From Mya arenaria (taxonomy: Eukaryota; Mollusca; Bivalvia; Myida; Myidae), in contig NC_069128.1 of NCBI RefSeq assembly GCF_026914265.1, forward strand, positions 34,512,498-34,576,497: a stretch of 64,000 nucleotides of DNA, read 5' to 3'. Below the pieces are notes generated by a model. The model had not been told where the DNA came from. It saw nothing but the letters and a program-made list of their open reading frames with translations, and made no database searches. Below, one piece after another: positions 27,801-54,304 of the stretch (its first letter is position 1; each line of letters begins with the position of its first letter). The translations under genes were made by a program, and so were the position numbers.

Positions 27801-27810
27801 TTTCAAGAAG

Positions 27811-28141: not shown

Positions 28142-28180
28142 TATAAGTATTCTGTATAGAAGACGGTTTAAGGGGCTGAG

Positions 28181-28214
<34 letters not shown>
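28181..28214. repeat. Run of 34 C
   Basis: Uninterrupted C34 directly after AAGGGGCTGAG and before GAAAAAAAAA. Such long C runs are rare in AT-rich genomes and could form G-quadruplex or i-motif structures. The exact length may be an assembly estimate. Confidence 0.9.
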
Positions 28215-28224
<10 letters not shown>

Positions 28225-28786: not shown

Positions 28787-28847
28787 TCGTTCGGAGCTCC
28801 TCGGCCATTTTTGAGAAAAAAACAAAAATAGCTGAGGAGTTCCGAAT
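28787..28847. repeat. Hairpin within a TTTTCG-rich repeat
   Basis: TTCGGAGCTCCTCGGCC is complementary to AGCTGAGGAGTTCCGAA about 27 bases further on. It lies in a stretch (28,600-28,770) with several degenerate TTATTTTCG copies. Possibly a foldback MITE core. Confidence 0.5.
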
Positions 28848-30570: not shown

Positions 30571-30767
30571 CAGAACTACGATCGGCCTGTGTCCGTTGTC
30601 AACAATTTGACTTTTTACACTCTAAAGGTCACAATTTAAACACAATCTTAATGAAACTTGCTCAGAATGTAACCCTCAACAAGATCTTGGATGAGATCGA
30701 TATCCGGTCATCTGGGGTTAAAAACTAGGTCACCAGGCCTAATTAAAGGAAAAGCTTGTTAACACTA

Positions 30768-31537
30768 CAGGGATACTTCTATGTCAGATTTTCAATGAGA
30801 GAATTGCTGCCATTTGTCCAAAATTGGTGAGAGAATTTTTATTTTAGTGAGAGTTTTATAAAACATTGATAATGCGGTGATAAAACAATGCATAACAATA
30901 TATGCATGAATATCAATATATTTACAAATTGACAATATATAGATAAATAGATATAATATAAACACTTGTTTGAAGGGAACACTTGTTAACAGTTCAGACA
31001 ACATGAACATTCATAATCATCATACTACAAAAAAATAGGATTTAACCATTTTTGCTGAAAGGTGCTTGACTTTTTTGTGGGAGATGAAGGCTTTCCAATG
31101 TTGTTTTCATCTGAACTTGTTAAATTATTTTCAGAGGCTTTACTTCAAGGAATGCAAACAGCGTTTTCTGATTTAACATTTTGACGCTTCCGATATTGTA
31201 GACGCCTTTAAAATGCAGTGGTAACCCGCATAAACAAAATTATTCCGGGTCGCAAAAATGCTTGAAAACAAGTGCGTGGAGGATATCGATTAAAACATTC
31301 GATAAGACAAATGCATTCAAAGTAGGGGAGACCATTCATCAGTAATTCAAAGAATATGAACGAGAAACCATGGGCGACTACGATGCTTTTTTTTGTTAAA
31401 CAACAAAAGATGAAAAAGACACAAAATACACGAACTGCGATAAAGTGCGAGAATATCTCGCAATTAAGCGATTTGGATGCGATTTCAGCGATTTTTATGC
31501 GAGAAATCGCAGAAATCGCTTACTAGAATTATCCCTG
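30768..31537. mobile_element. 770-bp TIR element (CAGGGATA ends), 5-bp duplication
   Basis: Starts CAGGGATA, ends TATCCCTG, flanked on both sides by CACTA (30,763-30,767 and 31,538-31,542). Removing element plus one duplication restores GTTAACACTATAGAAGTCAC, the expected host repeat. No intact transposase. CAG-start TIRs suggest hAT, but the duplication is 5 rather than 8 bp. Confidence 0.85.
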
Positions 31538-31657
31538 CACTATAGAAGTCACATTTATGACTGTATCTTCAGGAAAATTGGTCAGAATGTTAATATTAAT
31601 AATCTCTAGGTCAAGAATGAATCTGGGTCATTTGCGGTCAAAAACTAGGTCACCAGG

Positions 31658-32991
31658 CAGTGTACGAAATTCGGCTTTGAATCCACTAGCCCATTCGGGC
31701 TACCAGATAGGAAATTTTACTAGCCCGAAACCAATTTCACTAGCCCAAACATAAACACTTAAAAATTTCACTCGTTCGGAATAATTTTTGGAAGTTTAAT
31801 TACGATTCCGCAACGAGTCCGATCATCTAATCTAGCACGCTCATACAGTTTCAATAAATGCTCCCCAATCTGAACAATGTGTCAATAATAAATTATAGTC
31901 ATACTTATATTAGTGTAGTCATCTAAAGTTCATTAACTAATAAAGTTTTCAAAAAGGTATTACGAGAAAAAGAGAAAAATATTTTCTGAACATATCATTT
32001 ATTTAATGGAAAGAGTTCTGCATGTACTGTAAGTTCTGTTATCCAATGCATCTTTGTCAAATCCGATATGCACCAGCGATTGTGCAATGACATTTTTCTC
32101 TTTTCAACTTTCAGTTTCACTTTCAAGTTTCAGAAATATCAACAAAAATATATGGATGTTCATATTGCCAATATTCCTATAATTGTTCTTTAAAAATTAA
32201 TGGCAAAGCTATTCAAAGGTATAAAATACAACACGTAGAACCCTACTGTACTGTACACAGACAACGAGTTAACTATATCCGACAGTTCTCCTTTCACTTT
32301 GATTGAATTTGTCAGGAAGTAAGCGCGCACCTGTTTCCTCCGCATTTCAGACAACTTTTGTAGAATGATTATGTTCTGTTCGCATTAAAAACTTCAATAT
32401 CTTTCTTTTTATTCTAGCTAATAAATAAAATATATTTAAATGAAATAAACAAAATATCAATGTTGATATTGCTATTTTTGCATTGTTGATTTTCATAGCC
32501 ATCGTTGTTGTCAAAAACTGCCGACTTTATCCGTTAATTTACATAATGGGCGGAGTTTAAATGACGTCATAGAGTTTGACTGCTGCTATAAGACGCAGTT
32601 ACTGGTTAGAAACTGATCGATAATTACTTGTCACTTTGGGCGTTAATTTATTTTGACATGTGCTTATATTCATTGATTAAATAAACAAACATTGAGCACA
32701 TGGCTTGAGCCCTGAATAGCAGAGCAATTAGCTTTTTTATCATCATAAATTTCGGCGAATCCGACTACGTCATTGTCACTCCAGTCGCCTTGAAGGACGC
32801 ATTCTTGAATAATAAGGCTTTGCGTATAAAAAACGAAACACGATGCGTAGCACGTTTAATTGGCAGTTTTTTTTTTAAAATCACAAGGAAAAAACGGTAG
32901 CCCGGTCGGGCTAGTTTCTGTGGAAAATCGGTAGCCCCAGCTGAAATTTGGTAGCCTCGGGCTATCAGGCCACCGCGAATTTCGAACACTG
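31658..32991. mobile_element. 1,334-bp TIR element (CAGTGTNCGAAATTCG ends), 6-bp duplication
   Basis: Left end CAGTGTACGAAATTCGGC; right end in reverse complement CAGTGTTCGAAATTCGCG. The duplication ACCAGG lies at 31,652-31,657 and 32,992-32,997, and removal restores GGTCACCAGGTTAAATTG. Subterminal inverted copies of GGGCTAC/GTAGCCC occur at both ends. Interior includes CRE-like TGACGTCA (32,562) with TATAAG 25 bases downstream, perhaps an old promoter. No intact transposase frame seen. hAT-like, non-autonomous. Confidence 0.85.
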
Positions 32992-33170
32992 ACCAGGTTA
33001 AATTGAAGGAAAAGCATGTTAACACTCTAGATGTCTCATTTATGACTGTATCTTCATGAAAGCTGGTCAAAATGATTTTATCAATAATCTTTTAATCAAG
33101 TTTAAATCTGGGTCATGTGAAGTCAAAAACTAGGTCACAAGGTCAAATCACAGGAAAAGCATGTTAGCAC

Positions 33171-33558
33171 TAGTGATGTTCCGATGATCGATTATAATCG
33201 AAAATCGATTGGTTGTGCCTGAAATCGGCGACAATCGATTGTATTTGGTTAAAATCGATCATCGAACAAAAAAATGAAAAAAATATAAGTAAGTGTTCAG
33301 ACGTAATCTTTAACAAAATGGCAGATGAAAGCCACAATGAGCAAGTAAAAATGAACTGTTTTTGATATAACACTTAATTACTTCAATCATTGACATAACG
33401 TATATGCATATAATGATTAAGAGTTTAATAATGTGCATGAATAAAACTTCACTTTAGGTTTTATCTAGTATTTTAAAAAAACGATTGTACTAACGATAAT
33501 CGGTTACTTGAGTGGAACAGATTATCGATTGTAAAATTGGAACCGATTCCCAACACTA
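33171..33558. mobile_element. 388-bp hAT MITE with 8-bp duplication
   Basis: Left end TAGTGATGTTCCGATGATCG, right end in reverse complement TAGTGTTGGGAATCGGTTCC. Flanked by a perfect 8-bp duplication GTTAGCAC (33,163-33,170 and 33,559-33,566), diagnostic of hAT. The interior is rich in ATCGATTATAATCGA-type palindromes. Non-coding. Confidence 0.9.
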
Positions 33559-34543
33559 GTTAGCACACTAGAGGTCACATTTATGACTGTATGTTCATGA
33601 AACTTGGTAAGAATGTAAATATTAATGATCTCTAGGTCATGTTCGAATCTAGGTCATGTGCAGTCAGAAACTAGGTCACCAGGTGAAATAAAAGGAAAAG
33701 CTTGATGAAACTTGGTCAGAATGTTACCCTCAATAAAATCTTGGAAGAGTTTGATATTGAATCATCTGGGGTTAAAAACTAGGTTACAAGGTAAAATTAA
33801 AGGAAAAGCTTGTTTATAACACTATAGAGGGCACATTTATGACTAAGTTCATGAAACTTGGTCAGAATGTATATGTGGATGGGAACGTGATTTTGATCAT
33901 TGTGGCGCTTACGTGAATAACGAGAAAAGGTGAGAATAAAATCGCGCATTCCTGTTCCCTTAAACTTATTTATTTGTTGTCAACATAAAAGACACGTCAA
34001 TTTCGGCAATAAACCCTCTGCAACACTATTCGTTGACGTTTAGTTGATCATAAACTTTTAACTTGTGTTTAATTAACAGAAAGAGTTGGTCAGCTGTTCG
34101 GCTTTTGGACTTTGGTAACTACGTTTGTATGACGGTAAGGTGCAAACATTTCTGGCTGATGATGTGAGGCGTTTTTGAAATAAAAACAGTATTTTTTTTT
34201 TTTTGAAACGAAAGGACATTGATCAGAATATGCTTGATCGTGAAATGGTTGTTTATAACCGATATTTGTTCACATTCTGACGAACAGCGCAATAACAGAG
34301 ACACCGTTTCCCGGTTTATCACGAGAAACATCCGGTGTTAAACTTTAACGTTTCTGGGTTCAAATTGTGGAATTACAAGTGGTAAGTGCAAATAAAATGT
34401 TATTTAATCATTAAATGATTATGTTTAATCAGTATAACTTGATAATGCAATTGGACAGTACTTTCACATGGCAATCAAAGTAATTGACAAAACCCGGAAG
34501 TGCATTCTGCGACACCTATTGGAAAATATTTTGTTGTTTTTAG

Positions 34544-37500
34544 CAACGATAATGACCGCCAAGGTAATATGTTAAATAAACTATGAGTCAGTTCACATTG
34601 TCACAGGCCTCGACGGTACCTTATGAAATATAATAATATACAGGTGGGTTTTTTTTGGCAATATTTATAGCCGGTATTCGGTCATAATCCCAATGGCAAA
34701 AAGTATCTTTTTTTCCCAATTTCCCAATAAAAATTCCCAATCTGGAGCTCAAAAGCTTCAAAAGAAAATAAGAAAAAAAGACGATGAAAATAAAAACAAA
34801 ACAGTTACTTCCCCTACATGCAAGTGTCTATTCACAGAAACAAATAATGATGTAATATCCGCGTCATGGTGAAAGGTGGATTTTCATTGGTTGAACTATA
34901 TTTTTTATCCAATCAAATTAAGAGTTAAAACATTGTGTTGAAAACATGTATCATTGTCAACAAAAGGATTAATAATTTAAAGTTGACACTAAATTATTTG
35001 GTGCAGAAGGGGATTAGAATAATTTATAGACAATGCTGTTCTTTGTCATGCCTCACCAACATGTTTACATACATGACATTGACCTTCATTGCCAATATCG
35101 GAAAATGACAGAACTGAGAAGTGAAACTGAAACTTAAGACAACAGGGTGAAATGACCAAGTATTTATTTATTATAATGATGGTGTATTTACTTTTTGATG
35201 AATGTCAAAGGAATCATGTTGATGAAATTTTACAAAATGGATTCATTTGTTTTTTTGTTCAATTGAAAACAAGTCTGACTATTTGAAAATTGGAATCAAT
35301 TAAAAATAGTAATATATTCATTCCATTCTCTCCATGAGTCTGAAAGTCATAATTTTTAATAGGCAGCAGATTTTGTATCCAATTTAATAGGAAAAATGAA
35401 GATAAGCCCATTAAATTGTCTCTGAATTTTTTAAGAACTTGTTAATCAAACAATTGACTATTTCAAAGAGTTAAAACAAGGGATTAAAAATTTAAGGTGT
35501 TAACGGAGTCAGTGCATATTATGTTAAAAATACCAGTGTTATTCATTACAGTATTATATAAATTATATCCTTTGTAATTATTTATGAAGAATTTCCCAAT
35601 TTTGCCAAAATTGACGCGAAAATTCCCAATCTCATAGGTATAGGTCATATTACCAAATTACCGAAAAAAACAACACCTAAATATATTCAAAATGATGATC
35701 CAGATTTTGCAAATGAACTCCTCAAACTTTAACATTTTCTGATACAGTTTATATTACTATCATTTGAATGTTACTGAATAATGGTTCAGATCACCTGTTT
35801 TCATAAAATAGAATACTATTTTATTTTTTAAATGCTATCATTATTGTCTTTGAAGGTGCTGAACCATGTTGCCAAGATGTGCACTACCACTACCCATGGG
35901 ATTTTGCCCAGCAAGTCCATTATCAACATCATGCGCAACAAGTCGGGCCGATATATTTCGCCAGGCCATAAAAGTGTCAAGTGTTTGGCATGTGTACCGA
36001 AGGTTCAGGTATATTTTTTATGGTTATATGTCACTCTGAATAAAACAAGTAGTAACAGAATAAGACAGATCTTATACCATATATATGTACCTTTAAAAAT
36101 TGTATTTTCAAGTCAGAATTAAATTTGTAGCTTGGATTTTTTTATGTTGTCAGCTTTCCATTCTTTTTCAAAAACTTTTAATTTGGCCAAACTTAGAAAT
36201 CCTTTCAAAATATTTAACTTAAACAAGTAAAACATTCTTGATCTTAGCTTTAATTATAAAAATGAATTGTTATTAAAAATATAGATCTGTAAAAGTTATA
36301 CAGCCATCTGTTAGTGTCATTTTGGGATATCTACTTTATCTTCTTGCTGACTATTTCAGTAAAATTTTATTATTATTTGTGAAATCATTTAAAGGGGCTA
36401 TACAATAACTTTGATGAAATAGCTAAAAAAAAGAAGAAAATTGTTGAAAACTGACAAAAACTTGGTATTGATGTGTACAATGCATTGAAACTAACTAACC
36501 GAAGTACCACATAGTTTACAATTTATTTATTTTTCAGTTTTTTCGTATTTTACCATTAAAAAAGATTTCTAGGTTTGTATACCTAGTAGAATTCATTTTT
36601 ATGCGTGAATGGCTTGTCGATGTTATCACGTGATATTACCAAATTAGGTATATAGCTTAAATATTCCAAAGGTTTAGAGTAAGCTTTCGTTGCACAGTGG
36701 ATACAACACTGGACTGCAATTTTGGCGACTCCAGATCAAACATTTATATTTTGGTATTGTTTTACAATTATGATATCAAAAAGTTAAACATTTTATTAAA
36801 TAATTGTCCTGAGATTCATTACAGAAAAAAAACATTTTTTGGTGCCAATCTGGTGTATAGTCCCTTTAACAATAGTTAACATTATTTATACAGGAAAGCA
36901 GACATTTTATCTGGTGGACGAGGCCGAATTGCCGGGGAAAGGAAGTGACAGTGTCGTGAGCCTGGCCCACCACTACTTTCAGCACTATGGTGACGGTGAA
37001 AAACATGCTGAGGTATTTAGTGCTTTAAAACGATAACCCATTAAAATTATCTATAGAATATTTAATGGATTGAGGGTTCTAATAGCCTATGCAAACTTCA
37101 TCCTTATTGCTGAGAAGAGATTATGAGAATCAAATAATTGGATTTAGTTGTAGTTTGCGTTTTTTCTATGCTTCCAGTGTTGTAATCATTAGAATGACAA
37201 CATTGATGGAATTTTATATGTGTATAATAATAGTTTTTAAAAATACAGGAACTAGTTATTTTTTATAAAATTTGGTCAATTTTGTTTGACATTTGATGAA
37301 CATTTTTACCGTGGGTTCAGAAAACTGATATTGCCTCCTTCAGCACTTTGGACTTTTGGTCGCTTCAGACAATTTATCTTTATAGAAAGGTATATTTCCC
37401 AACGTCCATTTGCCAAATAAGCATTTGGAAGAGTTGAAAACGTATAAATCCCGATTTAATCTGAAGAAAACATGACGTAACATTTCGTGTCAAATATGTT

Positions 37501-40500
37501 ACATCTTGAATCGCTTGGTTTTTTGACAACAACAGACATGTATAATTCACTTTAGTGACCTGTTTTTAATTTTACCGAGGTCAGGTGTTCATTTGATGAA
37601 AACAATAGTTCCCATAAATACATACAAAACGTGTATTGATCGACCGAAATATTTCGCCTAAAGTCTTGTCTCAAATGTTACGTCACAAATTATTCAGATT
37701 TTGTTCATGTACACAGCCCTTTGTGTATTTCGACAAACTTTAACTGTGTGGCATATAGCTAATACCGCAACAGAAAAGTAGCACCGAACGCGTGCATTGA
37801 TACTGTGTAGTATATCCGATTTACAGTCAAAACGTCCCCAGGTCAAAACGTCCTATGGTCAAAACGTCCCCATTTTGGTCAAAACATCCCCAGTGCCTAG
37901 TCAAAACATCCCCAAGAACGTCATTGTTGGTTTGGACAGCTTGTCCGAAGACGCACCACTCCAAGATGGCGGAACAAGCAAAGCATGGGTAAGTGTTGTC
38001 GTGGAAGTTAAGTCCTAACAGATTCGAGGTGGGCTTATTTTATTCAGTTTCATGACATTAATTGATGCATCTTGTATATTTCGCCTGTACGGGTGCACAA
38101 ACTAATAATTTGTCTCAATTGCCTTGAGGTTTAAAACATTCAAATTCACGCGCGTTCAGTTCAGATGTGTTGTAAAGATCGATCTGAAGCTGGTATTTTG
38201 GTGTCTTATGTACGTCTACGAAGTATTTTGGTGTCTTATGTTACGTCTATAAAGTCATTGTGTTTACATCGGTACACGCTGTATTTTAAGCAGTCATAAT
38301 TCGCAATTTTGCATTTATAAACTGAGTAAATTTTAATTAGATAATTGGGAATTTCTTAAAAAATGCCTGTTGTCACACAGCTCTTATTACAAGAATACGT
38401 AACGGCGACACCATTCATTACCGGTTTTGACATTTGCGTAAAAGAGTCCCATGTTACTTCCAAATAATTTTGAAAAGCATTTTAAGTCTCTAGTGCTAGT
38501 AAGAAAGAATGTATAAACATGTTATGTACCTGTGTTACGCAATAATCAAGAGGTTTCCGGACAATTCGGCACCAAACGAATTCGGCATACATACCTTTTC
38601 GGCACTAAGTTAATTCGGCACCGCCAATTCGGCACCATCCGACCGGATAATTCGGCACCGTTTTATTTTATTTTTTGCTCATGTATTTAAGCAATAAGGG
38701 TTGACAGGTTTTTTCAAAAAAAAAATATTCCCCGAAATATTTTTAGAGCTACTTTATTTTTTAGTTTGTTTTCAATTCTTATATCTGTATTCATTGTCAT
38801 AGATATACCGTACCGTATTCTAAATTTTAAGTCCTTGTACACATATTTTAAAAGCATTTGAATTTTTGTAAATATACTGAATTCAAAAGGAATGAACGAG
38901 ATAATAAACAATATATGTGACATAAAAAAATGTTAACATTAAAACTTTATGCTGAAACTTTCATTGTTAAAAAAAACAATAATAAGAAACATATGAAAGT
39001 ATTTTGCAAAAATAAAATAAAGATGCTATGGTATAATACCCAATTTAATGTGATTCTTATAAAAATGAACTCGTAAAAGTTGATTTTAAACATAAATTAA
39101 TTTACACGGAAAGGAATATAATTAGTATTTAAACTTAAATCATTTTATTGGAAAATTGCTTTCTTATTCCGTATGCATAAAATACTTAAATCGAATATCT
39201 TCATAAACTACTAAAACATAATGAAAATAAACAGACGACTTTAAATTTATTACAGAGTAATTTGTTGTGTGATGAGATTATTATCTGTAGAAACACATGT
39301 CACAGTGTGTCGGCATGTGTCTCGTTAATCAACCCTATCCGTTCAACCCCTGGTGTGAAAATTAATAATAATCTTTAACGTACCATTGTTTATTGATAAC
39401 CATATGGTTTAATTGAGTACACGGGGGTCGCGTGGCAACTTTCTGAATAATATTTGTGCGCGTATATATTCAGTCAGACTGATTTTCAGATATAGTTGTA
39501 GAATTTTTCTATTTAACTGTTAAACGTTCCGATTAGCTGTTGGAAAACTGTATTGGATTAAACAATGATCGACGATTTGTGCATAAAGTGTCGCCGTCTT
39601 GTGAGGCCTAGGCAAAAGGGAAGGACATGTATATCATGTGAAAAAAACAACATGAACAGTGCCTTGAAGGTAAAATCTTTCTTTTTATATGTAAAATGAA
39701 AGTTATTTGTTTTTAATTATTATATTGTTGCATAAAAACTTCTAATGGGTAATTTGTTAGTATAATAAGTGATTGTTTAGTTAACGTACTTGTTATTCAT
39801 GTGTTTTCTTTTCTGCATACACATATGTTATACTATAAAGAAATACATAAAATAATGTTTTATCTGCCTTAAACTACAGATGAAGCTGAGACATGTTCTT
39901 TTGTGTGCGGGTCATGCGTAGAAAATATTCCGGAAAGGGGATCGTGTATTAATGCCGACGATATCATTGACGAACCGCCTCTTTTGGAAATTAGTGTAAG
40001 TTTAAGTTGTCTTCTTTTTCATTTTTTTCTTTTAATAATTGTTTCGGTTCCTGGAATTACAGAATTTCCTACAATTATAATGATACTATCAACCTAAATC
40101 ATGTTGATAAATTATCATTATTGTTATCGTTCTTATATTCACTTGATGTCATGTTTGAGTTTTAATTCAATTACAAAAATAACTCAATAAATCAGTCTGT
40201 TTTTAATCTTTGTATAGGCTCCAGTTGAACAACTGTCATCAGTCGATGAAGAAATCTTCAATGAACCACCAGTTTTAGAACGAAGCGTTCCGGTAAGTTG
40301 AATATCTCAAAAACATGTAAAAGAATATTAGTTTGCTACTCACAATAGAGGTTTCAGGAATAATTATGTATGTTCTTTTACCAAATAATGTTAATTATAT
40401 TGTGCTCAATGTTTGCAAAGTATATTTGTTTTTTAAATACAATTATTTTTCTACTCCAGCTTTCCATATATGGTGCCGAGACTATGGTCGACTATTTGAG

Positions 40501-43500
40501 TGAAAGCGGACAGAATCAAGCTGGGGATTTTAGCTTAAATATTTCCGGGTTAACTTCAGCAGAAACGAGCGTTCTTCATTCAACTATAACAGAGGTGATT
40601 TATATTGTGTTCAATGATTTTTGTATCCGACAGTTTATGAATTGCGTTTATTTTAACGTTCATATATCATAAGTAATTTGATGTCATGTAAAATGCGTTT
40701 CAAAATACTTACTAGTAAATGATTTTCAGTTGAGTGACGCAGATGCAGCGAGAGTCACTTTCAATCTTGGCACCAATTTCGGAATGGAGAGAGAAACAAG
40801 AGAAAGTAACGAAGTATGTATAGTATTTGAAATAGTACCAAGTTTTGAACAGACTAATATGAATCGAAACCTTTTAAAGCTTGTTTATCGATTCAAACCA
40901 AGGGTTTTACGTAAAGACTATTACTCTTCCATTTCAGTCTACCTCCTCTATACAAAGTCAGACCCACCAACACCAACTAAGTGTTAATATGTCAAGGGTA
41001 AGTATTTCAGGTGTGGCTGACCAGAACTGGACCTTTGACGTTACCAGAGATGAACAACTGTTGGATGCAACAGTTATATTTGAAAGGTAACGCTTTTTTA
41101 GATGATGAATATACAAAGGAATAACATATTTTAACAATAAGAAGATACATATTAAAATTAAAGAAAATGGTACTCATCGCTGATTGTTTATAGAAACAAT
41201 CGCAACACTTAACGCAACGTGACAGTATATATAATTGAATAAAATGTATGTATTATAATATACGTGACATTTTTATTATACAATTTACATGGTAGGTCTC
41301 TGGATGGAAGTGCCATAACCGACACAGTCCTTCAAGATCCAATGGAGGTTCGGTTCGAAGTCTTGGAGAACGGCACAGAGCGGGGAGGAAAAAAATTCGT
41401 GTCTTCAGACAGTTTCTCCTACACTCAGAAGGTAAAACAATGTACACTAATTAATTAGCTGATGATACTTGATATATTATTCAAAAGGGATCAAGACAAA
41501 TCGGCCCCTTACCAAATCGGCCTACTACCAAATCGGCCCCTAAGACGTTTCGGCCCTGCCATTTCGTCCCCTTAATTAAAATGACTCGAGACGTTTCGGC
41601 CCCTTAGTGATTTTCAACAGAGACATTTCAGCCCCTTAATTTTATTTTTTATCTTGAGTATAAAGTAAAACATTGTAGGTCTTCTTATAAATGTAAATGA
41701 GATCTGTAAATAAGTTGTAAATAACATATTTAAATTTACAAATAGACAAATATGCATGAAAAACAATGATATGACTGATTTAAAAAATACCCTGATTTTT
41801 AATATAAAATATTAGAAAATCTAAGAAATTTTATTTGTTTTAACTGTTAATTATTAATTGATCATTAAAGACTTCAAAGAAAAATTGTCTTTGAACCATG
41901 CGTTCTTTGCAAGGCAAACTGTGGGTGTGAAAAAGACATTCAAAAACGTGTGAATGAATAATTGTCTTTAATTTGTTAATGTTATTTACAGTTGATTGGT
42001 ATTATTCTGTAAGTGTGAGAATTAGCTGTTGGGAAAGTCGGAACAATCCTTGTAGACGTATTTATAAGCTTGTAAACACAAAGTGTCACAATACCAACGC
42101 CTGATACCTCTGTGGAATGACAATTTGCCATAAGACCGTCTGTCTAAAAACACCTTTTAAGCCAGTATGGTTTTGCATACGTATTCAATATAAGATTAAT
42201 AATAGTTTTTTTCATCCATACCTGATTTGAATATAAATTACTGAATTTCATAAAATGTATAACTTTCTTTCCATGTGTTTGTTTTTTATTATTAAATTGT
42301 AGTTAATAAGAAGATCTATGTACTGTATAATAGTTCTTATAAAATATATGTTCTCTTCTGTTCATAAATCATTATCCATCAATATCCATCTTAAAAGGCA
42401 TCTGGTGTTTGGTCAAGACTGATGTTAGACAATGGACATGCCATTATACATATTATTAGCAACATAGTTGTGTATAATATTTAAAGATTATTTAAAAAAA
42501 AAAAAGTTTAAACATTTCTTCTTCAACTCTATTTCGTTTTATAAAAATATCTCGTGAAGAAATCTTTACATGTTTTCAAGTGTACAGATATTTTCTTTAA
42601 ATCTATTTTTATCTATACCTTTGTATGCATGTATACAGTATAGCTTTGTCTATTAAAATAAAAAAAATGAAATTACATGTTTTTTTCTTATATTTAGAAA
42701 TAAAAAAAATAAAATAAAAATAAGGGCCGAAACGTCTCGGTAATCAGGGGCCGAAACGTCTACGTGATGGGGACGATTTGGTAAGGGGCCGAAAAGTTAA
42801 CCGTTTGAACTAGGGGCCGATTTGGTAAGGGGCCGATTTGTCTGGTAGCCATTCAAAATTGCATATTCTCATGAGGTCTTTGTAATTAAAATATAATTTA
42901 TGTAGAGGGCGAACTAGAACATACTGCTGTATGTTACAGTCACGGATGCGAGTTATTGGATGGACCCGGCAATGGCGCTGCAGCGTCCGGGGCAAGACAC
43001 CATGCACGGCCACGGTGAATAAGAAGGAGGGTATCTTTAAACGCGGGATCAACGACCACAACCACGCTTCTGATGGTAACATAGGCAAAAAGCTTAAAGT
43101 TAAAGCTGAGGTAATCACGATGCAATATACTATAAGGGATATTATTTGCTTTACACTTACTTGTATTGTCAATTGTATATGATAGTATTCGATCTTTATT
43201 CTAAATGAATATATTAGTACTGCATCTTGGATTGTTTACTCAAGGTTAAACAGGCAGCTCTACAAGACATACACCGTCCGGCATCTACTATTGTCGACCA
43301 GAAGATGTCTGAGCAATTTAACATACGGGATTTCAACTTACCTAACATGGAGAATTTACTGCGGATGGCGAATCGGGCACGAGCGGATCAAAGACCACGA
43401 GAACCGACTACGCAGACTTCGAGGTAAAAATGTACTTATTAAAACGAATAGATTCATCTATTCAGCATGTAGACGTTTTGTGAAGAAATTGAATAACATT

Positions 43501-46500
43501 ACAAGTGTTGAAATATCAATTGCAGATAAACAAAGAGTTCATTGACGAGAGCTTCCTAGGGGACATTAGCCACGACGGCCAGCGGCACCTGCTTTTTGCT
43601 GCACGTGACCAACACGGTGTTCTTAGGCGTGCACGACGCTGGTACTTGGATGGGACTTTTAAAGTGAGGAAGGAACCCTTTCAGCAGTTGTTTGCCGTTC
43701 ATGCGTTCGTGAGGTCCGGAGTTAACAAAAAGCAGGTGCCTCTCGTGTTCGTGTTGATGACAAGAAGACGCAAAGAAGACTATATTGCGGTACAAACTAT
43801 AATTAATTGTAAATAAATTCATAGCATAAATGGCGTCGCCATCATCAATTACATTAAATGACGTTATTTTATATTTCAATAAATACTGGAGTAATGACTT
43901 TATGTGCACAGTAACGGCACGAATATATAAATAAAAACATAATTAAGGCTGACCATTTTCTAAATTATGTTGTAGGTGTTGGAGAAGTTACTTGGAAGTA
44001 ATCGACTACCAAGTAGATGTAGAGGGATGCATGATGGACTTTGAAGTTGGTACGCAATGGTATTCGCTTAGTATAAGCCGCTTTTTGTTAAAACAAATAC
44101 TGATGAACAAATGTATAACATACTTCCATGCGGTATTAAATTATTATCAAAAGGAACACTTCAATCTGAACCCATCATTGTCAAGTTTGAAAATAATTGT
44201 CTGTTTTAGGACTTTGGGCAGCACTCCGCCATGTATTCCCGCGGGCCTCAATGAAGGGTTGTACATTTCACTGGACACAAGCTGTGTTCAGGAAATTGAC
44301 GAGTCTTGGCCTGAAGACAACGTACGAACAGCGGCAAGGGATGTACTGGCTGGTAAGGAGCCTCCTTGCCCTTCCCTTTCTGCCACCGCAACACATAGAG
44401 AGCGCGTTCCGTCGTCTTCAAGAAAAGGCAACTACCACCAAACTTGAGATTCTCTGTGAATACATAGACGACCAGTGGATGTCCAACTCCTGCTGGACGG
44501 TGCGCGAATGGTCTTGCTATCTTCAGTCTGTCAGGACAAACAATGACTGCGAAGGTAAGCAAAAATCTAAATCCCAACTTGTTAAATAAAGCATTATATT
44601 CTAGTAGCATTCTCGTTCAGCTGCACGGACTTAACATTAGGTGCAATTATAATGAACAATTAATGTAGTGCCATAACATAACATTAAAGTTAAAGATTAA
44701 ACAAACTACCGATCGCGTGCCATAAATTTTGATTAATAGTTTTATACCAATATATACGATTTAAGGATGGCATAGACGGATCAACAGTAAAGCGGGTCGC
44801 AGCAACTTGCAGTTTTACGTTCTTGTGCCATTGCTGCAGCGTGAGGCCGAGACTGTTGGACGACAAATACAGCTTGTGTTCGAGCACATCTTGTCCCGCC
44901 ATAACCGGACAGTGTACAGGGAATTAGACGTGAAACTGCAAGACCTATGGACTTCTTTTGACGACGGGGAAATTAGCGCGTCAGCCTTTTAAAGTCAATT
45001 GGGCAATGTATCGACCCATTTGAAAATGCACAGCGGAGTATCATTCTTTATATACTAACAAAAAGCAAAGTACATTATTATTGTCAAAAAAACAAACAAG
45101 TGAACTTTAAGTAATAAGTGTAATTTAAGTGTAATTTTATCTCTGTTTTTTCTAAGACAAATACTATATATTAAATAATTTGTTTTAAAATAAGAATATA
45201 TGCATTCATTTTGAATACTACAAAATAGCATTTCAATTTACATCCTAGGTTTTAAACAGCCAAATAATCGCTTACATCTGTTCTAATTCTCTAAAAGTCC
45301 AAACCAATGTAAGATATCGTAATGGAGAAAATAGGTTTAACATTGTTTCATATTTTTACCCATTCATTTCAGATCCATTTGGTGTAACGTTTCAGCTACA
45401 CGAAGAAACTAACGCCTCGAGGGAAGATCAGCTCAAGATCCAATTTTGGCAAACTTTCATGTATATTCAATTATTAACTAAACATTGTATTTGCAAATGA
45501 CTATTTATGATAATTTATGAATTGCCTTTCAATTTTGAATTAAATTTTTGACAATGAACGTGTCTTGTAATCATTACTTACCCACAGCGCACGCGTTTTA
45601 CTGATGTTAATTATAGTTACAAAAATAAGAAGCAAAATATCCCCCCAATGAACAAATTTATGCGTATGCTATTAAAATAAGAATGTTCATAATCTTGGGC
45701 CATCTGTTATTACTGAAAAAAACGATACATGATACTCACATTGGATGATCGAATGTTTTTTGAAAGGTAGATTAAATCATTAATTGAAATAAACGAACCA
45801 TATAACGAATGCAAGTGAGAACAGTTGAGTTAAAGATAATTTGAATTTTGTGCCGAATTGACTCTGCTTTATGGTGCCGAGTTGACGGGGTGCCGAATGT
45901 GTTGGTGCCGAATTGACTAGGCCGAATTCGTTTGGTGCCGAATTGTCCAGTTACCAATCAAAAGACATATACAAGAAATAAGCCTCAAATAGCTCATATT
46001 ACTGCCACAAAAGTATATAACTTTACTCTTTGATGTGCGCCTTTGTGTCCAGTTACATCTGGATGTAAAGTCCTAAAACCGATTGTATGCTTCAAAACTT
46101 GGCATGGTTTGCTTTGTTTTTCTGCATAAAAAACAACTATTTATGTGACAAAGCATTACAAATTATAATAAAGCAAATGTTTACAACAAGAAAGGGTTCC
46201 ATTTATAGTGGAATGTCATCGTTACATCACCAATTTTTTAAATAAATTGAAGGCTCATTACTTTTTTTTGTGTGAAGTGCTTTATTTAAATCTTCTAAGG
46301 TATTTTAGAAGTGACAAAAACAAATGCAGTTAGCATGTAAAAGAACTTACTAAACTATTGATCAAAAAAAAAATTATGCGGACACCAAGCAATTTGTGAT
46401 GTAACAAATCAAGCTGGACAGTGAATTCTTCCTCATATAGCTTAAAAAAGAAAAAAAGAATGTATTAAATTTTCCAGGTTTATTTCGATAATGCTGTCTG

Positions 46501-47443
46501 CCAAAACAAGAACAATGCTGTGCTTTGGTATGCCATGTGGCGTGTAATGACAGGTCAGTTTTCTAATCTGTTAATAATTGTTTGTCTGGTTTTTTAGGAC
46601 AAATGCATTGAGCTGCTTTTGAAGTCAATCACATCATTGATACCTGCGATTTGTGCTCTAATTTAATAGGATGCAGAACTGGATAAAGTTAAAGCGTAGT
46701 TGGCAGTCATTTGATATAAGGAATATGTTAATCAAATAAACATATAAGTAAACACTCCATTATTGTAAGATTTATATGTATTGAATTTTTTATTATACCC
46801 TAGTTAAAATCATTTGCTAAGTTTATCTTTTGTGAATATAGATAAGTTTTATTTACACTAAATCTTCCAACAATTTCCAGGACTGCATGAGAGTGTAACG
46901 CTAAACACTATGTTGGTTGGGCACACCAAATTTGCTCCTGACTGTCACTTCGGTATCTTGCGATGCTGTAATGCCGAGAATCTTCAAGAAATTTCCCACA
47001 CTGTATCCGCCTCTTCAAAGTCCAGCCACAACATCCCACAGTTGATTAATGACCCTCAGCAACCAGTCACATTTCACAGTCGGAAATCATTCCTAGATAC
47101 ATATTTCAAAACTCTTAAGAATATTACCAAATACCACCATTTCTATGGATCAAAACATAAACCAGCAGTTGTAGTATGCAAAGAGTTTGTAGATTCCTCA
47201 GAAAATTGAAGCTAACCTTTTGAGGATGAGTCCAGAGTGTGGTGTTTTGCCTGAACTAAAGCGCACACCATGCCTAGATGCTGCACGTCAATGGTACCTT
47301 CATGATTCTATTGGTCCATTCTTTAGATCTGAGTCATCAAGATCTGCAGTATGCCCTAAACCAACTCTGTGTAAAGTCAAAGTTGATATTGACAAAAATA
47401 ACACACAGAAAGGCAGTAAACGCAAACATAGCCTTCTGTGTTA
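34544..47443 (+). CDS. QNKNN-type (DUF7869-like) protein gene, broken
   Basis: Exons in order: 34,544-34,563 (start MTAK, acceptor TTGTTTTTAG, donor AAGgtaata); 35,856-36,002 or 36,008 (VLNHVAKMCTTTT, GRYISPGHKSVKCLACVPK); 36,894-37,012 (GKQTFYLVDEAELPGKG, SLAHHYFQHYGDGEKHAE); 46,478-46,553 (VYFDNAVCQNKNN, LWYAMWRVMT); 46,881-47,209 (GLHESVTLN, MLVGHTKFAPD, SFLDTYFKTLKNITKYHHF). The order YLVDEA, DNxVxQNKNN, GHTKFAPD is that of a widespread uncharacterised invertebrate family I know as DUF7869. The last three exons join in phase; exon 2 to 3 is out of phase by one base, so an exon is missing or lost. After the stop at 47,207 a shifted frame (to 47,443) continues with LDAARQWYLHDSIGPF, the usual C-terminal motif, so the reading frame is broken there. 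The spaced Asp residues suggest an RNase H-like transposase (inference). Confidence 0.65.
34642..35678. mobile_element. 1.04-kb TIR element in intron 1
   Basis: Left end AGGTGGGTTTTTTTTGGCAA; right end in reverse complement AGGTGTTGTTTTTTTCGGTA. Inner copies of TTCCCAAT occur near both ends (34,718-34,740 and 35,592-35,625) in inverted arrangement with ATTGGGA. Flanks share 6 of 8 bases (TAATATAC, AAATATAT). Non-coding. Confidence 0.6.
36389..36869. mobile_element. 481-bp TTAA MITE ending 24 bp before an exon
   Basis: Left end TTAAAGGGGCTATACA, right end in reverse complement TTAAAGGGACTATACA (15 of 16), TTAA at both boundaries. Holds a degenerate tRNA-like stretch (CGTTGCACAGTGGATACAAC, 36,689). 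Its right edge is only 24 bases from the splice acceptor at 36,893. Confidence 0.8.
37825..37988 (+). mobile_element. Orphan 5' end of a MULE-like element
   Basis: Five tandem copies of TCAAAACRTCCCC (37,826-37,914) followed 50 bases later by a start codon in good context (CCAAGATGGCGGAA, ATG at 37,966) and a donor (CATGG then GTAAGT at 37,989), reading MAEQAKH. Tandem CG-containing motifs are how the TIRs of the two MULE-type elements downstream are built. No right-hand partner was found, so it seems truncated. Confidence 0.45.
38552..38662 (+). repeat. Left TIR of the MULE
   Basis: Six to seven copies of TTCGGCACC-type motif, likely transposase binding sites (inference from other MULEs with subrepeated TIRs). 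Confidence 0.85.
39565..44992 (+). CDS. FLYWCH / MULE-domain transposase gene, 13 exons
   Basis: Exons: 39,565-39,669; 39,880-39,995; 40,218-40,292; 40,460-40,594; 40,730-40,813; 40,938-41,086; 41,296-41,431; 42,940-43,110; 43,245-43,423; 43,526-43,789; 43,976-44,049; 44,210-44,554; 44,766-44,992; about 690 codons, all with AG/GT borders. Exons 1-2 carry Cys pairs (CIKC...CISC; CSFVCGSC). Exons 7-8 form a FLYWCH finger (W-x-R-Q-W-R-C, TPCTATV, NDHNH). Exons 10-13 are the MULE transposase: first Asp in RRWYLDGTFKV (43,649), second in CMMDFEVGLWAAL (44,037), Glu in RTNNDCEGWHRRIN (44,551), plus CTFHWTQAVFRKL. Exons 2 and 3 encode similar acidic modules (DEPPLLEIS, NEPPVLERS). Breaks: exon 1 to 2 and 9 to 10 are out of phase, and exon 11 changes frame between VLEKLLG and the CMMDFE part. 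Probably no longer functional. Confidence 0.85.
41487..42850. mobile_element. 1,364-bp non-autonomous element nested in the MULE
   Basis: Left end GGGATCAAGACAAATCGGCC, right end in reverse complement GGCTACCAGACAAATCGGCC, both continuing CCTTACCAAATCGGCC. Perfect 8-bp duplication ATTCAAAA at 41,479-41,486 and 42,851-42,858. TIRs are made of repeated AATCGGCCCC and ACGTTTCGGCCCC motifs over 130-160 bp. Interior is AT-rich and non-coding. It sits in the intron that separates the two halves of the FLYWCH finger. Confidence 0.9.
45846..45955 (-). repeat. Right TIR of the MULE
   Basis: Inverted counterpart of 38,552-38,662: GGTGCCGAA repeated at 45,850, 45,872, 45,889, 45,904 and 45,934. Confidence 0.85.
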
Positions 47444-48179
47444 ATTCAATGTGGACTGGTTAAATCTAGTGCTGCACAGATCTGTTTGTCAAACCAGTCT
47501 GGAAGTATACTTATGTCATAAATGGCATTTTAAGCAAGTGTAATAAATCGTAATATGACATCATAATAATGAATGGTGTTGAAAATGTGAACGCTTTTTA
47601 GTATCGATTAATGTGTTTAGCGCTGTAAATACTCACATTAGTAGGATTGATATGAATATTATATCACAGGAGAGAAAATGCAAAATAACTTATTGGAATT
47701 GTTTACTTAGATTGTTATAGGCTTGCCAAGTCCCTTTATATTAGTTGGACAGAAAACACTTGTTTAATCAACTTTGTATTGAACAACTTGAGTAATATCC
47801 TCTACATCTATAGACTAACACAATTAAGATCTATGTATCTCTGTCATCTGAAACATGAGAAAGAATATTTGCTTTTTTGTGTATTACTTATATTATTGAT
47901 TGGTTGCATTGCATTGTGCAAGTGTTTTTTATTACCAAATCATTGCAAACTACAACTCTTTTTTTAGCAAATGAAAGAGACCGTGCAGATTTTTTCTTAA
48001 TCGCTTGCTAGGCCTTTAGCATTACCAAAATGTGACTTGACAATTTAAGAACATGCATTTTTTTATAATTATGACTTCAGTTGAAAATGACATCTCAATG
48101 AATTAACTATTGTCATTTACTCATTTGTTGGTGAAATGTTGATTGTAGATCAAATGTTTGTGGAAAATTTGAAAAAAAT
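47444..48179. other. 3' flank of the QNKNN gene, nothing recognised
   Basis: AT-rich, no further exon seen. A 62-codon hydrophobic frame at 47,779 has no support. Confidence 0.4.
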
Positions 48180-49470
48180 GAGTAAAAATGGCAATATTAC
48201 ATGTAACCATAGCAACAGACTGTTGTTTCTGTAGTTTTTTTATGTCATTTTGTACATATAATGAGCAATGTGTACTCGTTGTTTCTATAAGTTCATGTAT
48301 AAGCTATAACAGACAGTTAAGTTAGTATCTCGACATGGATACTGTATTCAAAAAATAAGAACATTTTTAGTGGACATTGTTTTCAAACTGGTTTACCAAT
48401 GTGTAACATAATGATCCATATCTTCTGATTTCTTTGTTCAAAATTGACTTCAAACTTAAGTTTTTATATCTTAGATACTTGGTATCGTTTACATGCCAAT
48501 AACTTGAAACGTATTGTATATTGAGAACACATTTTTTGTTGCAGACTTCAAAAATGATTGGAAATAGCATTTTCATTTAAGTAACCATAAGAACCGATTT
48601 TTGCTTTGACCTTTGTGGCCAACTTATATGTCATTATTGACATAAGCAATGTAATTCTAGTAAAGATAAGTCAAATATTTAAATATCTTGACATGGATAT
48701 TGTATTCAAAATTAAAACAGTTTTTAAAACTTCATATTTAATTTCTGAAAATACTTATATCATAAAGATGTCAATAACTTTTTAAATAATTTAAATAATT
48801 TTATTAAGGTAATTCTTTTTTATGCAGACTGTCTAAAATGATTGGTAATAGCATTTTCTTAAGTAACCATAGCAACTGAATTTTGCTTTGACTTTTGTTG
48901 TAAGTTTCTTTATCATTATGGACATTAGCGATGTATACTTGTTATTTTCCTTTTGTAGTTTATGTGATACTAGTAAAGATAGTTTTATATTTTAATATTT
49001 TGTCTTGTATACTTCATTCAAAATAAGAACAGATTTAGCGAACATTTAGTTCAAATTGTGTTAAAGCCCTCTGTTACAAAATGTTCCATATTCACAAAAC
49101 GTAAAAAAATATAGTATCCATTGTTTTGTTTTTTAATTTGACTTGCAACTTCAAATTTTATTTCTGCAATTGCTTGGTATCATAAAAATGTCAATAACTT
49201 AAAACACAACTTTATGAATAACATTATTTTTTGAGAAAATGAGTAAAAATGGCATTATCAATAGTTACCATAGCAACCAAATGCAGTTATGAACTTTTCG
49301 TTAACTTTTATAATCAAACGATGAGTGCTAAAACTTAAATGTTACATGTAAATAGTCCTTGACATGATACTAATCTGACATGGATATTTCATTCTAAATA
49401 AACACATAAGACCACACATTTTGTTCATTTCTACACATGTGTTACGAAAAGTACTAAATTTGGTAACTTT
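48180..49470. repeat. Diverged tandem repeat, four units
   Basis: Units of about 285-400 bp recognised by AAGTAACCATAGCAAC (48,207; 48,583; 48,864; 49,267), GACATGGATAYTGTATTCAAA, and CTTGGTATCATAAAAATGTC. The last of these is met again at 51,467-51,490 just before the right TIR of the giant element, implying that 49,480-51,440 was inserted into this series. Confidence 0.7.
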
Positions 49471-49482
49471 TTGTGAATTTTG

Positions 49483-49505
49483 ACTCAACTCAACTCAACT
49501 CAACT
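49483..49505. repeat. Short (CAACT)n repeat
   Basis: ACTCAACTCAACTCAACTCA followed by ACT: four to five copies of a pentamer at the right edge of the diverged tandem series. Confidence 0.85.
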
Positions 49506-49695
49506 TTATTTCCACCATTAAAGGTGATATTCATATTATGTACAAATAGTTACTATGAAGGCATTATATCTATATACATGATATATGTACATACACAAAA
49601 ATTAGCATATTATATCAACATGCATATTGAGATTGTGTTTGTATCCTTTGCATCGAACACAAACTTTGGATTTTTATGAAATAGGGAGGGGGATA

Positions 49696-50652
49696 CAGGG
49701 TTCTCAATAGGGACCGGCCGACGGCTTAAAAGGCCGCTTCAAAATGAATTTGGGCCGGTTCAAATCGGCAATTTCTTAAAAATGATATCGAAGAAATTTT
49801 GTAAACATCCTGCCAGAAACCGGAAATCTAAATTATGTGATCTGCGCATCTAAGCTCTTAGAACTGCACGCGCACCGAGCCGTTAATTCTCATTGGCTGG
49901 CTTATTATAGATATTATCGGAATTTCCAGAATTGCTATTTTTGAGCCCCACGTCGCAAAAAAAGATGGTGAGTTTAAAAATCGAAAAAAGTTTGTTTGTA
50001 CATCGCCGTGAACAGCCAGTGGTAAAAAAAAGAAAATATGTTTTATCTATTGTACAAATTAACGACATAAAAACTCTTTGTGTACAGTAACATTCCAATG
50101 TTTACCGGCACTTCGAAAAGGATCTCTTGTTACGTTTTACATGATAATCGAAAGTGGTCAGTATTAATTAACTTACCATGATTAACAAATTACGTGGTGT
50201 TGTGTCTGCGATACCTATTGTTTATATTAACTTAGCGCGTGCATTTTATCTCGCTCGGCATTCCGATGATTCCGAAACAAAATGGAGGCAAAAAAGAGGA
50301 ATTTTTTTATTGAAATCATTGTAGGAATTGGAGCATTTTCTCTAAAAGGCGCTTGTGTGGAGAAAAGGTCTAAAGTTGTCCAAAATTTACATTTTTAATA
50401 TTTAACAAAAAAATTGGATTCTTTTTTTTTCAATAAAGCAATTCATTTTAAATCAAAATTGTGTTATATTGTCTTCAAAAATAACTACCCTTATCATGGT
50501 CAAAATAGCCCAGAATGCACGATTTCACACCTAGAAATCAAAAAAATTCTGGGAGGGGGGGGTCATGCAGGCGAGCGTCTGCGACGCTCGGATGTTTGGG
50601 CCTCTTCAAAGTATTTGAAAGCCTCTTACAACAATTCTTATTGAGAACCCTG
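49696..50652. mobile_element. 957-bp TIR element (CAGGGTTCTCAATA ends), 6-bp duplication
   Basis: Left end CAGGGTTCTCAATAG; right end in reverse complement CAGGGTTCTCAATAA. Flanked by GGGATA on both sides (49,690-49,695 and 50,653-50,658), the restored site being GGGGATATTGAAATGG. Interior non-coding. hAT-like termini. An 8-bp reading with one mismatch (GGGGATAC/GGGGATAT) is possible if the first C is outside the element. Confidence 0.8.
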
Positions 50653-50659
50653 GGGATAT

Positions 50660-51450
50660 TGAAATGGTGTTGTCCGTCCGTCCTTCCCTCCGTCCGTCCT
50701 TCCTTCTGTCCGTCCGTCCGCCACCTGCGTTTTCTCAGTAACTAGCCGGTAGAATTTCATGAAACTTTAAATAAATATGAACCACTATACTGGAATGATG
50801 CCCGTCCAAAAAAAATTTGATTGGTCAATTGTCCTTGGAGTTATTGCCCTTGATTTTTTGAAATATGCACATTCACAGCCATTTCTCAGTCACTAGCTAT
50901 CATTTCATGAAACTTAAAATAAATCTGAATTACTATACTGGGATGATGCGTGTTCATTTTTTTTGGATTGGTCAATTGTACTTGGAGTTATTGCCCTTGA
51001 TTTTTTGAAAAACTCATTTACAGCCATTTCTCAGTAACTAGTTGGTAGAAATTCTTGAAACTTGAAATAAATATGAACCAACATACTGTGATGATGCCTG
51101 TTTATTTATATTTTGGATTGTGTAATTTCTATATGAGTTATTTGCCCTTGATTTATTAAAATATCCATGTTTGCAGCCTTTTCTATGCAACTAGCTGGTA
51201 GAATTTCATGACACTTGGAATAAATAAGAACCAACATACTGTGCTGATGCCTGTCTATTTTTCTTTTGGATTTTGAATTTTCCTTAGAGTTATTGCCCTT
51301 GATTTATTAAAAAATCATTGTTTGCAGCCGTTTCTCAGTAACTAGCTGCTAGAATTTAATGAAACTTGAATGTTATATGAACCTTCAAGCACAAACAAGC
51401 CATCAAGCACAAACAAGCCATCGTTGGCGGGGGATATCTTTTCACTGAAA
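50660..51450. repeat. Tandem dispersed repeat with TCCGTCCG start
   Basis: After a CCGTCCGTCCTTCC stretch (50,682-50,725) there are about five units of 130-180 bp with TTCTCAGTAACTAGCTGGTAGAA, TTCATGAAACTT and GAGTTATTGCCCTTGATTTT. Ends with a duplicated CAAGCACAAACAAGCCAT at 51,389-51,421. Confidence 0.8.
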
Positions 51451-51549
51451 ATGCTTGTTGTTCTAGAAATACTTGGCATCATAAAGGTTACAATATCTCA
51501 AAATGTCATTTTTGGGCCAGAATGATCATATTCCCATTCCCATCCACAT

Positions 51550-52717
51550 AATAAATTATATTGGTTAGCTCTAGGTTAAGTTTGAATCTGGGTAATGTGT
51601 GATCAAAAACTAGGTCACCAGGTCAAATTGAAGGAAAAGCTTGTTTACACTCTAGAGGTCACATTTATGACTGTATCTTCATTAAGATTAGTCAGACTGT
51701 TTATATTAATAATTTCTAAGTCAAGTTTGAATCCTAGTCATGTGTGGTCAAAAACTAGGTCATTAGGTCAAATCATAGGAAAAGCTTGTTAGCACTCTAG
51801 AGGTCACATTTATGACTGTATGTTCATGAAACTTAGTCAGAATGTTTATATTGATTAGCTTGAGGCCAAGTTCGAATCTAGGTCATGTGTGGACAAAAAC
51901 TAGGTCACCAGGTCAAATAAAAGGAAAATCATGTTAACACTCTTGAGGCCACATTTATGACCATATGTTCATGGAACTTGATCAGAATGTTATTCTTGAT
52001 GATTTTTAGGTAGAGTTTGAAATTGGGTAATCAGAGGTCAAAAACCAGACCACTAAATCACACAAATCCTAGAAAAACTTGTAAACACTGTAGAGGTAAC
52101 ATTCTCTCTTTGATCACCATGAAACTATGTCAGAATGTTTGTGTTTATGAAGTCTATGTCAAATTTGAAACTGGGTTACCTGAGTTCAAAAACTAGGTCA
52201 AGAAGTCAAATCATAGAAAATATTGTTAAAACACTGTTGAGCCCATATTTTCTACTTTATCTATATGAAACCTTGTCAGAATGTACTTATTACAGCAAGG
52301 TAAGGTTTGTTACTGGGTCATCCGTGATATTGAATTAAAAAAACATCCATGATGGTGACAACTTGGTCACTAGGAAGGATCTAAGTAATACATTTTTTAA
52401 TTCTCGCAGGTAAAAATGTTTTAATTCCATACCTCATGATTATATTGGGATGTGAATGAGATGTGAAACCCAAATGTTTAGTCCTGTTTGGCACCATATA
52501 ATCTTAATTAGTATGCGGTAAAGCCCATATAACCAAATCACCATCTTACTTTAACTTCAATAATCTAAAGTAGCTGAAATGAAGATGATCCTTTAAAATT
52601 GTGGTCTAAGGCTGATAGAGAAGAGTTTTGTCACAATTGCCCTCACCCTGAAAACACTTATTTCACACTTGAATTGGATCAGGTGAGCGATACAGGGCCT
52701 TCTGGGCCCTCTTGTTT
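51550..52717 (+). repeat. Right half of the split tandem dispersed repeat
   Basis: Continues the AAAACTAGGTCACCAGGTCA series of 30,575-33,872 and degenerates to the right. Terminates with a hairpin AGGGCCTTCTGGGCCCT followed by CTTGTTT (52,693-52,717), preceded by GGTGAGCGATAC. Confidence 0.85.
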
Positions 52718-52890
52718 GTCATAGTTATACCAAATCAAATTTGGAAATATGAAGATAAAATTGTATAGATATTAGAGTAAATCTTCTATTTAAATTTCAT
52801 ATAAAATTAATAAAAATCATTTGTTTTGTTGTTTGTTTCGAGACTGAAAGCAAAATTATGAACAAATCTGTCAGAAATAATATGTCTTTG

Positions 52891-53384
52891 CCAACAACAT
52901 TTGGCCCATACAATATTCTGGTTATCAGCCAACAACATTTGGCCCATACAATATTTTGGTTATCAGCCAACAACATTTGGCCCATACAATATTCTGGTTA
53001 TCAGCCAACAACATTTGGCCCATACAATATTCTGGTTATCAGCCAACAACATTTGGCCCATACAATATTCTGGTTATCAGCCAACAACATTTGGCCCATA
53101 CAATATTCTGGTTATCAGCCAACAACATTTGGCCCATACAATATTCTGGTTATCAGCCAACAACATTTGGCCCATACAATATTCTGGTTATCAGCCAACA
53201 ACATTTGGCCCATACAATATTCTGGTTATCAGCCAACAACATTTGGCCCATACAATATTCTGGTTATCAGCCAACAACATTTGGCCCATACAATATTCTG
53301 GTTATCAGCCAACAACATTTGGCCCATACAATATTCTGGTTATCAGCCAACAACATTTGGCCCATACAATATTCTGGTTATCCG
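52891..53384. repeat. 38-bp tandem array, 13 near-identical copies
   Basis: Unit CCAACAACATTTGGCCCATA followed by CAATATTCTGGTTATCAG, starting at 52,891 and every 38 bases to 53,347. I see one substitution in unit 2 (TATTTTGG) and one near the end of unit 13 (TATCCG). As 38 is not a multiple of three and the unit has no plus-strand stops, all three plus frames stay open for about 175 codons; these are not genes. Confidence 0.98.
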
Positions 53385-54304
53385 CCAAATACGAGGAGCT
53401 TTTTCAAATTCTGTGTAAAAAATAGCTGGCCTGAAGATGAAGGGCAAAACAAAATATCGAGTTTGCTACAAAACATGTTCCATTGACCTTACTTTTAACC
53501 ATTAAAACAGAATGCATTTGATTAAGGTACAGAGGCTTTATTCACCAACAAATATTCCGTGGTGCTTACCATGATGAAAATTCAAAAACATTTGTATCTT
53601 GTTAAATGTAATTTATTAAGTGGATGTTCAATATTGATTTTGCATACAAGTAATATTTTTGTATGTATACCTTTTAGAGTTCAATGGGGAAGGTTATTGC
53701 TAAAAAAATGTTAAGCTTAGTTACAAAAGTGACTCTCAATTTGAATTTAAATGGTCCATATCCAAACTAGATCCATAATCAATAAATGAGCATGTAGTAT
53801 TTCAAGACATAAACACCATTTGAAGTCGAAAAAAATAACTCCTCAATCGCAATAAAAAATAAAATAGCTCTGTAAAGAAACGGATCTGAAAACGCTGTTA
53901 ATGCAAACATTTAGCCAAACCATACATAGAATGAAACACTTGAAAATATTTGCTTTCTATCTTAATTGTTGTTTTCTTGGAATGGGTTACTTGACAAATC
54001 AAGACTTCCAAGACATAGCATTCAAATTAAAGTATGAGTCTTGAAATAAAGAGAATAACTCGTATCAAGGAATAAATGTGCTGATATTTGAGGCAACAAA
54101 CATGTTACATACAAGTCATCTTGTCTGTATAAGGTCTTAAATTTTATGAAGTCTTGAACAGTTAATAAAATTACTTCAATGCTACAAAATGTAAATATAC
54201 CCCTGGAGATTTTTCAAGAGGTCAACATCTTTAATTGCAAGTTTGAATGTCTTGTACAATATATTAAAAGTAATCATACAGTTTCATATGATATTTCTTT
54301 CCAG
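53385..54304. other. Upstream of the OB-fold gene, nothing firm
   Basis: AT-rich. The first recognised exon at 54,305 has a good acceptor, so earlier exons or a 5' UTR exon may lie here, but I could not identify them. Confidence 0.4.

Follow-up and report, generated by a model that had tools for sequence, protein, structure and literature searches.

The interval 33,875–51,547 of the window, i.e., of the whole 64,000-nt stretch of Mya arenaria DNA analyzed here (C7:34512498–34576497), is a decayed member of a multi-copy family of cut-and-paste DNA transposons and has grown from approximately 5–6 kb to ~17.7 kb by insertions, among them that of a second transposon. In its fullest form, to which we assign a probability of roughly 0.8, our reading is that this copy is a dead and enlarged member of a multi-copy Sola2-type cut-and-paste family that moves by the mechanism proposed below. 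The region is a worked case of how nested insertions together with satellite duplication conceal a 5–6-kb transposon in a 17.7-kb interval. Furthermore, DUF7869, a domain of unknown function encoded by the element, gains a likely function in animals and bacteria alike, that of a DDD transposase.

The 35-bp inverted ends with about 30 matches described in an earlier note on this DNA were recovered by an inverted-repeat scan of the window, with 30 of 35 nucleotides matching between 33872–33906 and 51516–51550; the element itself begins with GTGG and finishes with CCAC. No other pair of ends separated by 15 kb or more within 33,000–52,500 reached 30/35, and scans of 52,200–64,000 and 26,000–33,900 found no partner ends resembling those of the element. 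Both flanks consisted of units of a single ~145-bp tandem repeat. Unit phase was 132 where the left flank stopped and 129 where the right flank restarted, a difference of 3 nt, and the alignment ran across the junction with 7 extra nt when the flanks were joined, in agreement with the claim that one repeat had been split in mid-unit. By our own arithmetic, chance alone would bring the phases of a 145-nt unit this close, to within 3 nt, in ~1/20 of cases, and thus the agreement supports an insertion without proving it; the proof was provided by the genome copies with the same paired ends. The region is AT-rich and repeat-dense, and phase agreement alone is weak evidence within a tandem array, circumstances that would favor a chance pair of inverted ends between unrelated satellite fragments. 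Nevertheless, such a coincidence deserves practically no credence, because the best pair in each of 20 randomised sequences matched at 24–27 of 35 positions, with 30/35 reached in none, and the same ends recurred as pairs with exact duplications elsewhere in the genome, by which this reading was refuted.

Table 1. Positions of the transposon copy, its flanks, its gene remnants and the later changes in the window.
Feature	Positions	Strand	Basis
Left part of interrupted tandem array	33556..33870	+	Repeat analysis, flank phase
Left target-site duplication, ATAT	33871..33874	.	Sequence; exact duplications in genome copies
Left terminal inverted repeat, starts GTGGATGGGAAC	33875..33907	+	End scan, genome matches
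Stretch unlike L157, in place of L157 804–2036 (most of exon 1)	34636..35729	.	blastn against L157
Remnant of exon 2 with a single in-frame stop, retaining the first candidate catalytic Asp	35855..36013	+	Limits read from translation
DUF7869 transposase exon 3 (putative function)	36896..37012	+	Limits read from translation
9.3-kb stretch holding the nested MULE; ~180 nt in L144, ~160 nt in L157	37134..46433	.	Copy alignment, blastn
Left 9-bp target duplication of nested MULE (AATCAAGAG)	38544..38552	.	Empty site in L143, L146
Nested 7,403-bp MULE	38553..45955	+	Ends, domain matches, empty site
1.35-kb stretch inside MULE, 29-nt perfect inverted ends	41494..42843	.	Inverted-repeat scan
Right 9-bp target duplication of nested MULE (AATCAAAAG)	45956..45964	.	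Sequence comparison with left copy
DUF7869 transposase exon 4 (putative function), second candidate catalytic Asp	46478..46555	+	Limits read from translation
Exon 5, with a frame break at ~47.2 kb and the third candidate catalytic Asp	46880..47441	+	Limits read from translation
Stretch present in L154 and L157, missing from 5.1-kb copies	47385..48115	.	Copy alignment, blastn
Insertion with 151-bp tandem array (50731–51370)	49486..51454	.	Copy alignment, blastn
Right terminal inverted repeat	51515..51547	-	End scan, genome copies
Right target-site duplication, ATAA, 3/4 identical to left copy	51548..51551	.	Sequence
Right part of interrupted 145-bp tandem array	51556..52229	+	Repeat analysis, flank phase

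When the 1.216-Gb, 18-contig M. arenaria assembly was searched, the left end was matched at least 40 times (with 40 of the 111 first-look candidates scored) and the right end at least 41 times (40 of 461 candidates scored). Twenty left-end copies were taken with ~10 kb each, the window's own copy and the lower-scoring rest being excluded. The short imperfect terminal inverted repeats of the window were found again in 14 of these 20, with the matching right end 2.3–9.6 kb from the left one, and a fifteenth copy (L142 with L164) had its right end at ~17.8 kb, so that the ends do recur as pairs elsewhere, as the note had claimed. In the remaining five (L145, L147, L150, L153, and L156) a right end was not seen within the ~10 kb taken. 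All 11 paired copies with mutually unlike flanks carried exact 4-bp target duplications around the element (GTGG to CCAC), which read ATAT in nine cases and AAAT in two. The target sequence is AWWT, duplicated over 4 bp, and this length led us to reject the TA-like target suggested previously. A Tc1/mariner element was discarded on the same ground, and no mariner-type transposase domain was found in the 35 element ORFs scanned.

The copies nearest to the window form a group of their own. L143 and L144 had satellite flanks and the duplication ATAT/ATAA in common with the window, L146 had the left flank in common with it and the duplication TTAT/ATAT, and the first 700 nt of these three copies and of the window were 97–98% alike. 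The ends of L142 were 98 and 99% like those of the window, and its flanks were the same tandem repeat. Judging from these likenesses, the window, L142, L143, L144, and L146 appear to derive from a single insertion by segmental duplication. The four copies, located in C7:33.06–35.25 Mb, are satellite-array duplicates in which this transposon is embedded; they differ in later insertions and deletions, which makes the region a small chronology of the nesting.

The enlargement by nested insertions, already proposed from the window alone, was confirmed by the genome copies and by the empty site of the nested MULE, which also helps to order the events. L143 and L146 lacked exactly this MULE and carried a single AATCAAGAG at that place; in the window the two flanking 9-mers are 8/9 identical, a 9-bp duplication. 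L142/L164 had the left MULE junction in common with the window, with 99% identity over 38013–42449, and lacked window positions 42449–48232. Since the MULE is present in the window and in L142 and absent from L143 and L146, it was inserted after the split from L143/L146 and before the split from L142. The stretch at 47385–48115 is better explained by a deletion in the 5.1-kb copies than by an insertion in the window, because L154 and L157 possess it. L144 and L164 also contain the insertion that starts at 49486, which was missing in L143, L146, and the aligned distant copies.

The nested element was classified as a MULE by its 9-bp duplication, MULE target duplications being 8–11 bp (PMC6446971), and by a MULE transposase match. 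It resembles MULE/Phantom-like elements in both respects and in a FLYWCH match, the two domain matches (42.9–44.6 kb) being below the Pfam cut-offs (MULE, E = 0.0037), and differs from them in having terminal repeats composed of 15–16-bp tandem units. The 1.35-kb stretch inside it is read as a further insertion; its ends are built of the 16-bp tandem unit CAAATCGGCCCCTTAC, unlike the MULE's own unit, and no target duplication was seen at its borders. A RAG1 match in the frame 40682–40984, also inside the MULE, was taken as noise (E = 0.04, 12.5 vs 25 bits), and so were matches to SWIB, PfEMP1, Cag12, Cullin, IL17, and similar Pfam families, each below its cut-off.

The element's own gene has five exons and encodes a ~700-aa product with the Pfam domain DUF7869, in which D156, D235, and D277 (numbering of P0006) are the candidate catalytic aspartates. 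The conserved multi-exon gene announced in the earlier note is therefore present, although what had been taken for one gene proved to be two, the second being the FLYWCH/MULE gene of the nested element. At least one exon of the DUF7869 gene was detected in all 14 paired copies, and stops within the matched exons were found in 12 of them. The fullest copy, L157 (6,411 bp), has imperfect inverted ends (GTGGATGGGAAC.../...ATTCCCATCCAC), open first and last exons (395 codons to the stop and 205 codons, respectively), no stop in the matched exons, and GT-AG introns. Its joined 700-aa product was identical over the full length to M. arenaria LOC128209636; L157 is located on C14 and LOC128209636 is assigned to C11. 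In a genome search with the LOC128209636 protein (64 of 1301 candidates scored), at least eight loci, that of L157 included, matched exon 1 over at least 375 aa at 96–98% identity, together with many further degraded or partial matches.

The window copy retains all three candidate catalytic aspartates. Nevertheless, it is not the self-contained mobile unit that had been supposed: L157 positions 804–2036 were absent from it in a blastn comparison, and since the 5.1-kb copy L161 lacked L157 positions 1106–2053, most of exon 1 has been lost in both. The window gene is also broken by the in-frame stop in exon 2 and the frame break in exon 5, and the window DUF7869 exon alone gave a Pfam match of 18.9 bits, below the cut-off of 26. 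Separately, exon fragments resembling a second DUF7869 gene by eye were noticed at window 58371–58998, with no matching ends nearby and no DUF7869 match by Pfam.

In an alignment of 240 relatives, the ungapped rows retained D156 in 231/232 cases, D235 in 235/236, and D277 in 236/236. The DUF7869 protein probably catalyzes transposition as a DDD transposase. A PDB sequence search with the DUF7869 profile returned a single match, a chorismate mutase (E = 0.089). DUF7869 relatives were not found in the viral contigs, plasmids or phages scanned; a 14-mer of the element end occurred in at least 120 stretches of viral contigs, and was set aside as too short for specificity.

Additionally, a profile scan of prokaryote species genomes identified, from 44 pattern matches, 13 bacterial loci encoding DUF7869 relatives. 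Long inverted ends around the gene were observed in seven of the 13 in the first scan (L121–L125, L129, and L132; Desulfocicer, Thiomargarita, Legionellales and others), delimiting elements of 2,046–2,719 bp whose ends mostly begin with GGGG. The two elements with ORFs listed, L122 and L129, contained one ORF each, of 657 and 655 aa. The flanking four bases fitted AWWT at 7/7 left and 6/7 right ends, and were identical on both sides in three of the seven elements (23/28 positions; as good in 336/5040 re-pairings). With an exact duplication in only 3/7, a 4-bp duplication is suggested rather than proven for the bacterial elements, whereas their AWWT flanks are clear. No convincing left-right end pair was found at the other six loci (L126, L127, L128, L130, L131, and L133); at three of these, a right end was seen without a left one, and AWWT was present each time. 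The two bacterial proteins scanned were recognized as DUF7869 by Pfam and by no NCBIfam model, and these two members deserve an insertion-sequence family entry.

The ends might instead belong to another transposon, such as Ginger, with the DUF7869 gene as a passenger. Ginger ends begin with TGTNR, and these elements have 4-bp duplications and a retroviral-type integrase core; extended by one base, the ends of the Mya element read TGTGG. Such an arrangement is nonetheless very improbable. DUF7869 exons occurred in every one of the paired copies, the fullest included, and a Pfam scan of 35 of the 105 ORFs of at least 50 aa listed around the element revealed no integrase and no further transposase apart from that of the MULE, an element with separate ends and a separate duplication. 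Moreover, AWWT is also the target of the bacterial DUF7869 elements.

The transposases of the Sola superfamily are DDD enzymes that occur in bacteria, protists, plants, and animals. The Mya family resembles Sola2, for which 4-bp AWWT duplications and short inverted ends have been described (PMC3627910), in these two characters and in the three candidate catalytic aspartates. The AT-rich AWWT duplication was found in the 11 copies mentioned above and in imperfect form in the window and its satellite relatives (ATAT/ATAA and TTAT/ATAT); the three conserved aspartates are present, with a predicted catalytic role and fold; and the bacterial relatives, with inverted ends at seven of 13 loci, would themselves be Sola elements. 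On the basis of the AWWT duplications, the DDD signature and the bacterial members, the Mya element was filed as Sola2-type. The element fits the known superfamily Sola and is probably not a new kind of element, contrary to the initial impression that no named superfamily had this combination, for Sola2 is a named counterpart by its 4-bp AWWT duplications (PMC3627910). The 17.7 kb of the window copy set it apart from Sola2 only through later changes, mostly nested insertions. In bivalves, 14 Sola2 elements have been curated (PMC10294476); M. arenaria appears in the main text of that work only in the reference list, so the family described here may be absent from the set curated there. KolobokP, described from bivalves (PMC9587614), is likewise a bivalve-rich DDD/E transposon, and the Kolobok duplication is also 4 bp long. 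Nevertheless, the sequence duplicated by Kolobok is TTAA, in contrast to ATAT or AAAT in the Mya copies, and KolobokP is furnished with long terminal direct repeats (PMC9587614).

The likeness to Sola2 was drawn from the duplications, the three aspartates and the general Sola traits. This leaves some room for the DUF7869 elements to be a superfamily of their own, common to bacteria and animals and Sola2-like only in the 4-bp AWWT duplication; neither DUF7869 nor PF25273 was found named in the literature searched, and the lack of an NCBIfam model for the two bacterial relatives points the same way. DUF7869 would then mark an unrecognised non-Sola superfamily comprising single-ORF bacterial insertion sequences of ~2.0–2.7 kb and multi-exon animal transposons, all with AWWT, and with a recently active member in Mya. 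We regard this as possible but unlikely, since the DDD triad and bacterial members are Sola traits, and 4-bp AWWT duplications are described for Sola2 in the literature (PMC3627910).

Under the preferred Sola2-type reading, the DUF7869 transposase would bind the element ends and excise the element, which would then be integrated at an A(A/T)(A/T)T target through joining staggered by 4 bp, the fill-in giving rise to the 4-bp duplication. The window copy was inserted into the 145-bp satellite array and apparently duplicated along with it, and other elements, including the 7.4-kb MULE, were inserted afterwards. The paired ends, the duplications, the gene and the copies were observed directly, and the catalysis by the DUF7869 protein is our deduction. 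Against this explanation stand the 3/4 duplication of the window, that of L146, the five of 20 copies without a right end in the ~10 kb taken, the Pfam match of the window exon below the cut-off, and the exact duplication in only 3/7 bacterial elements.

Three further features were observed in the window. The Shieldin SHLD2 OB fold was matched below threshold by an open frame at 56737–57117 (E = 2.4e-5). A 3.8-kb array of 62/70-bp units with a strong GC skew of approximately -0.37 extends over 22070–25907. Finally, 52890–53388 contains 13 nearly perfect 38-bp tandem repeats, throughout which all three forward frames are open.
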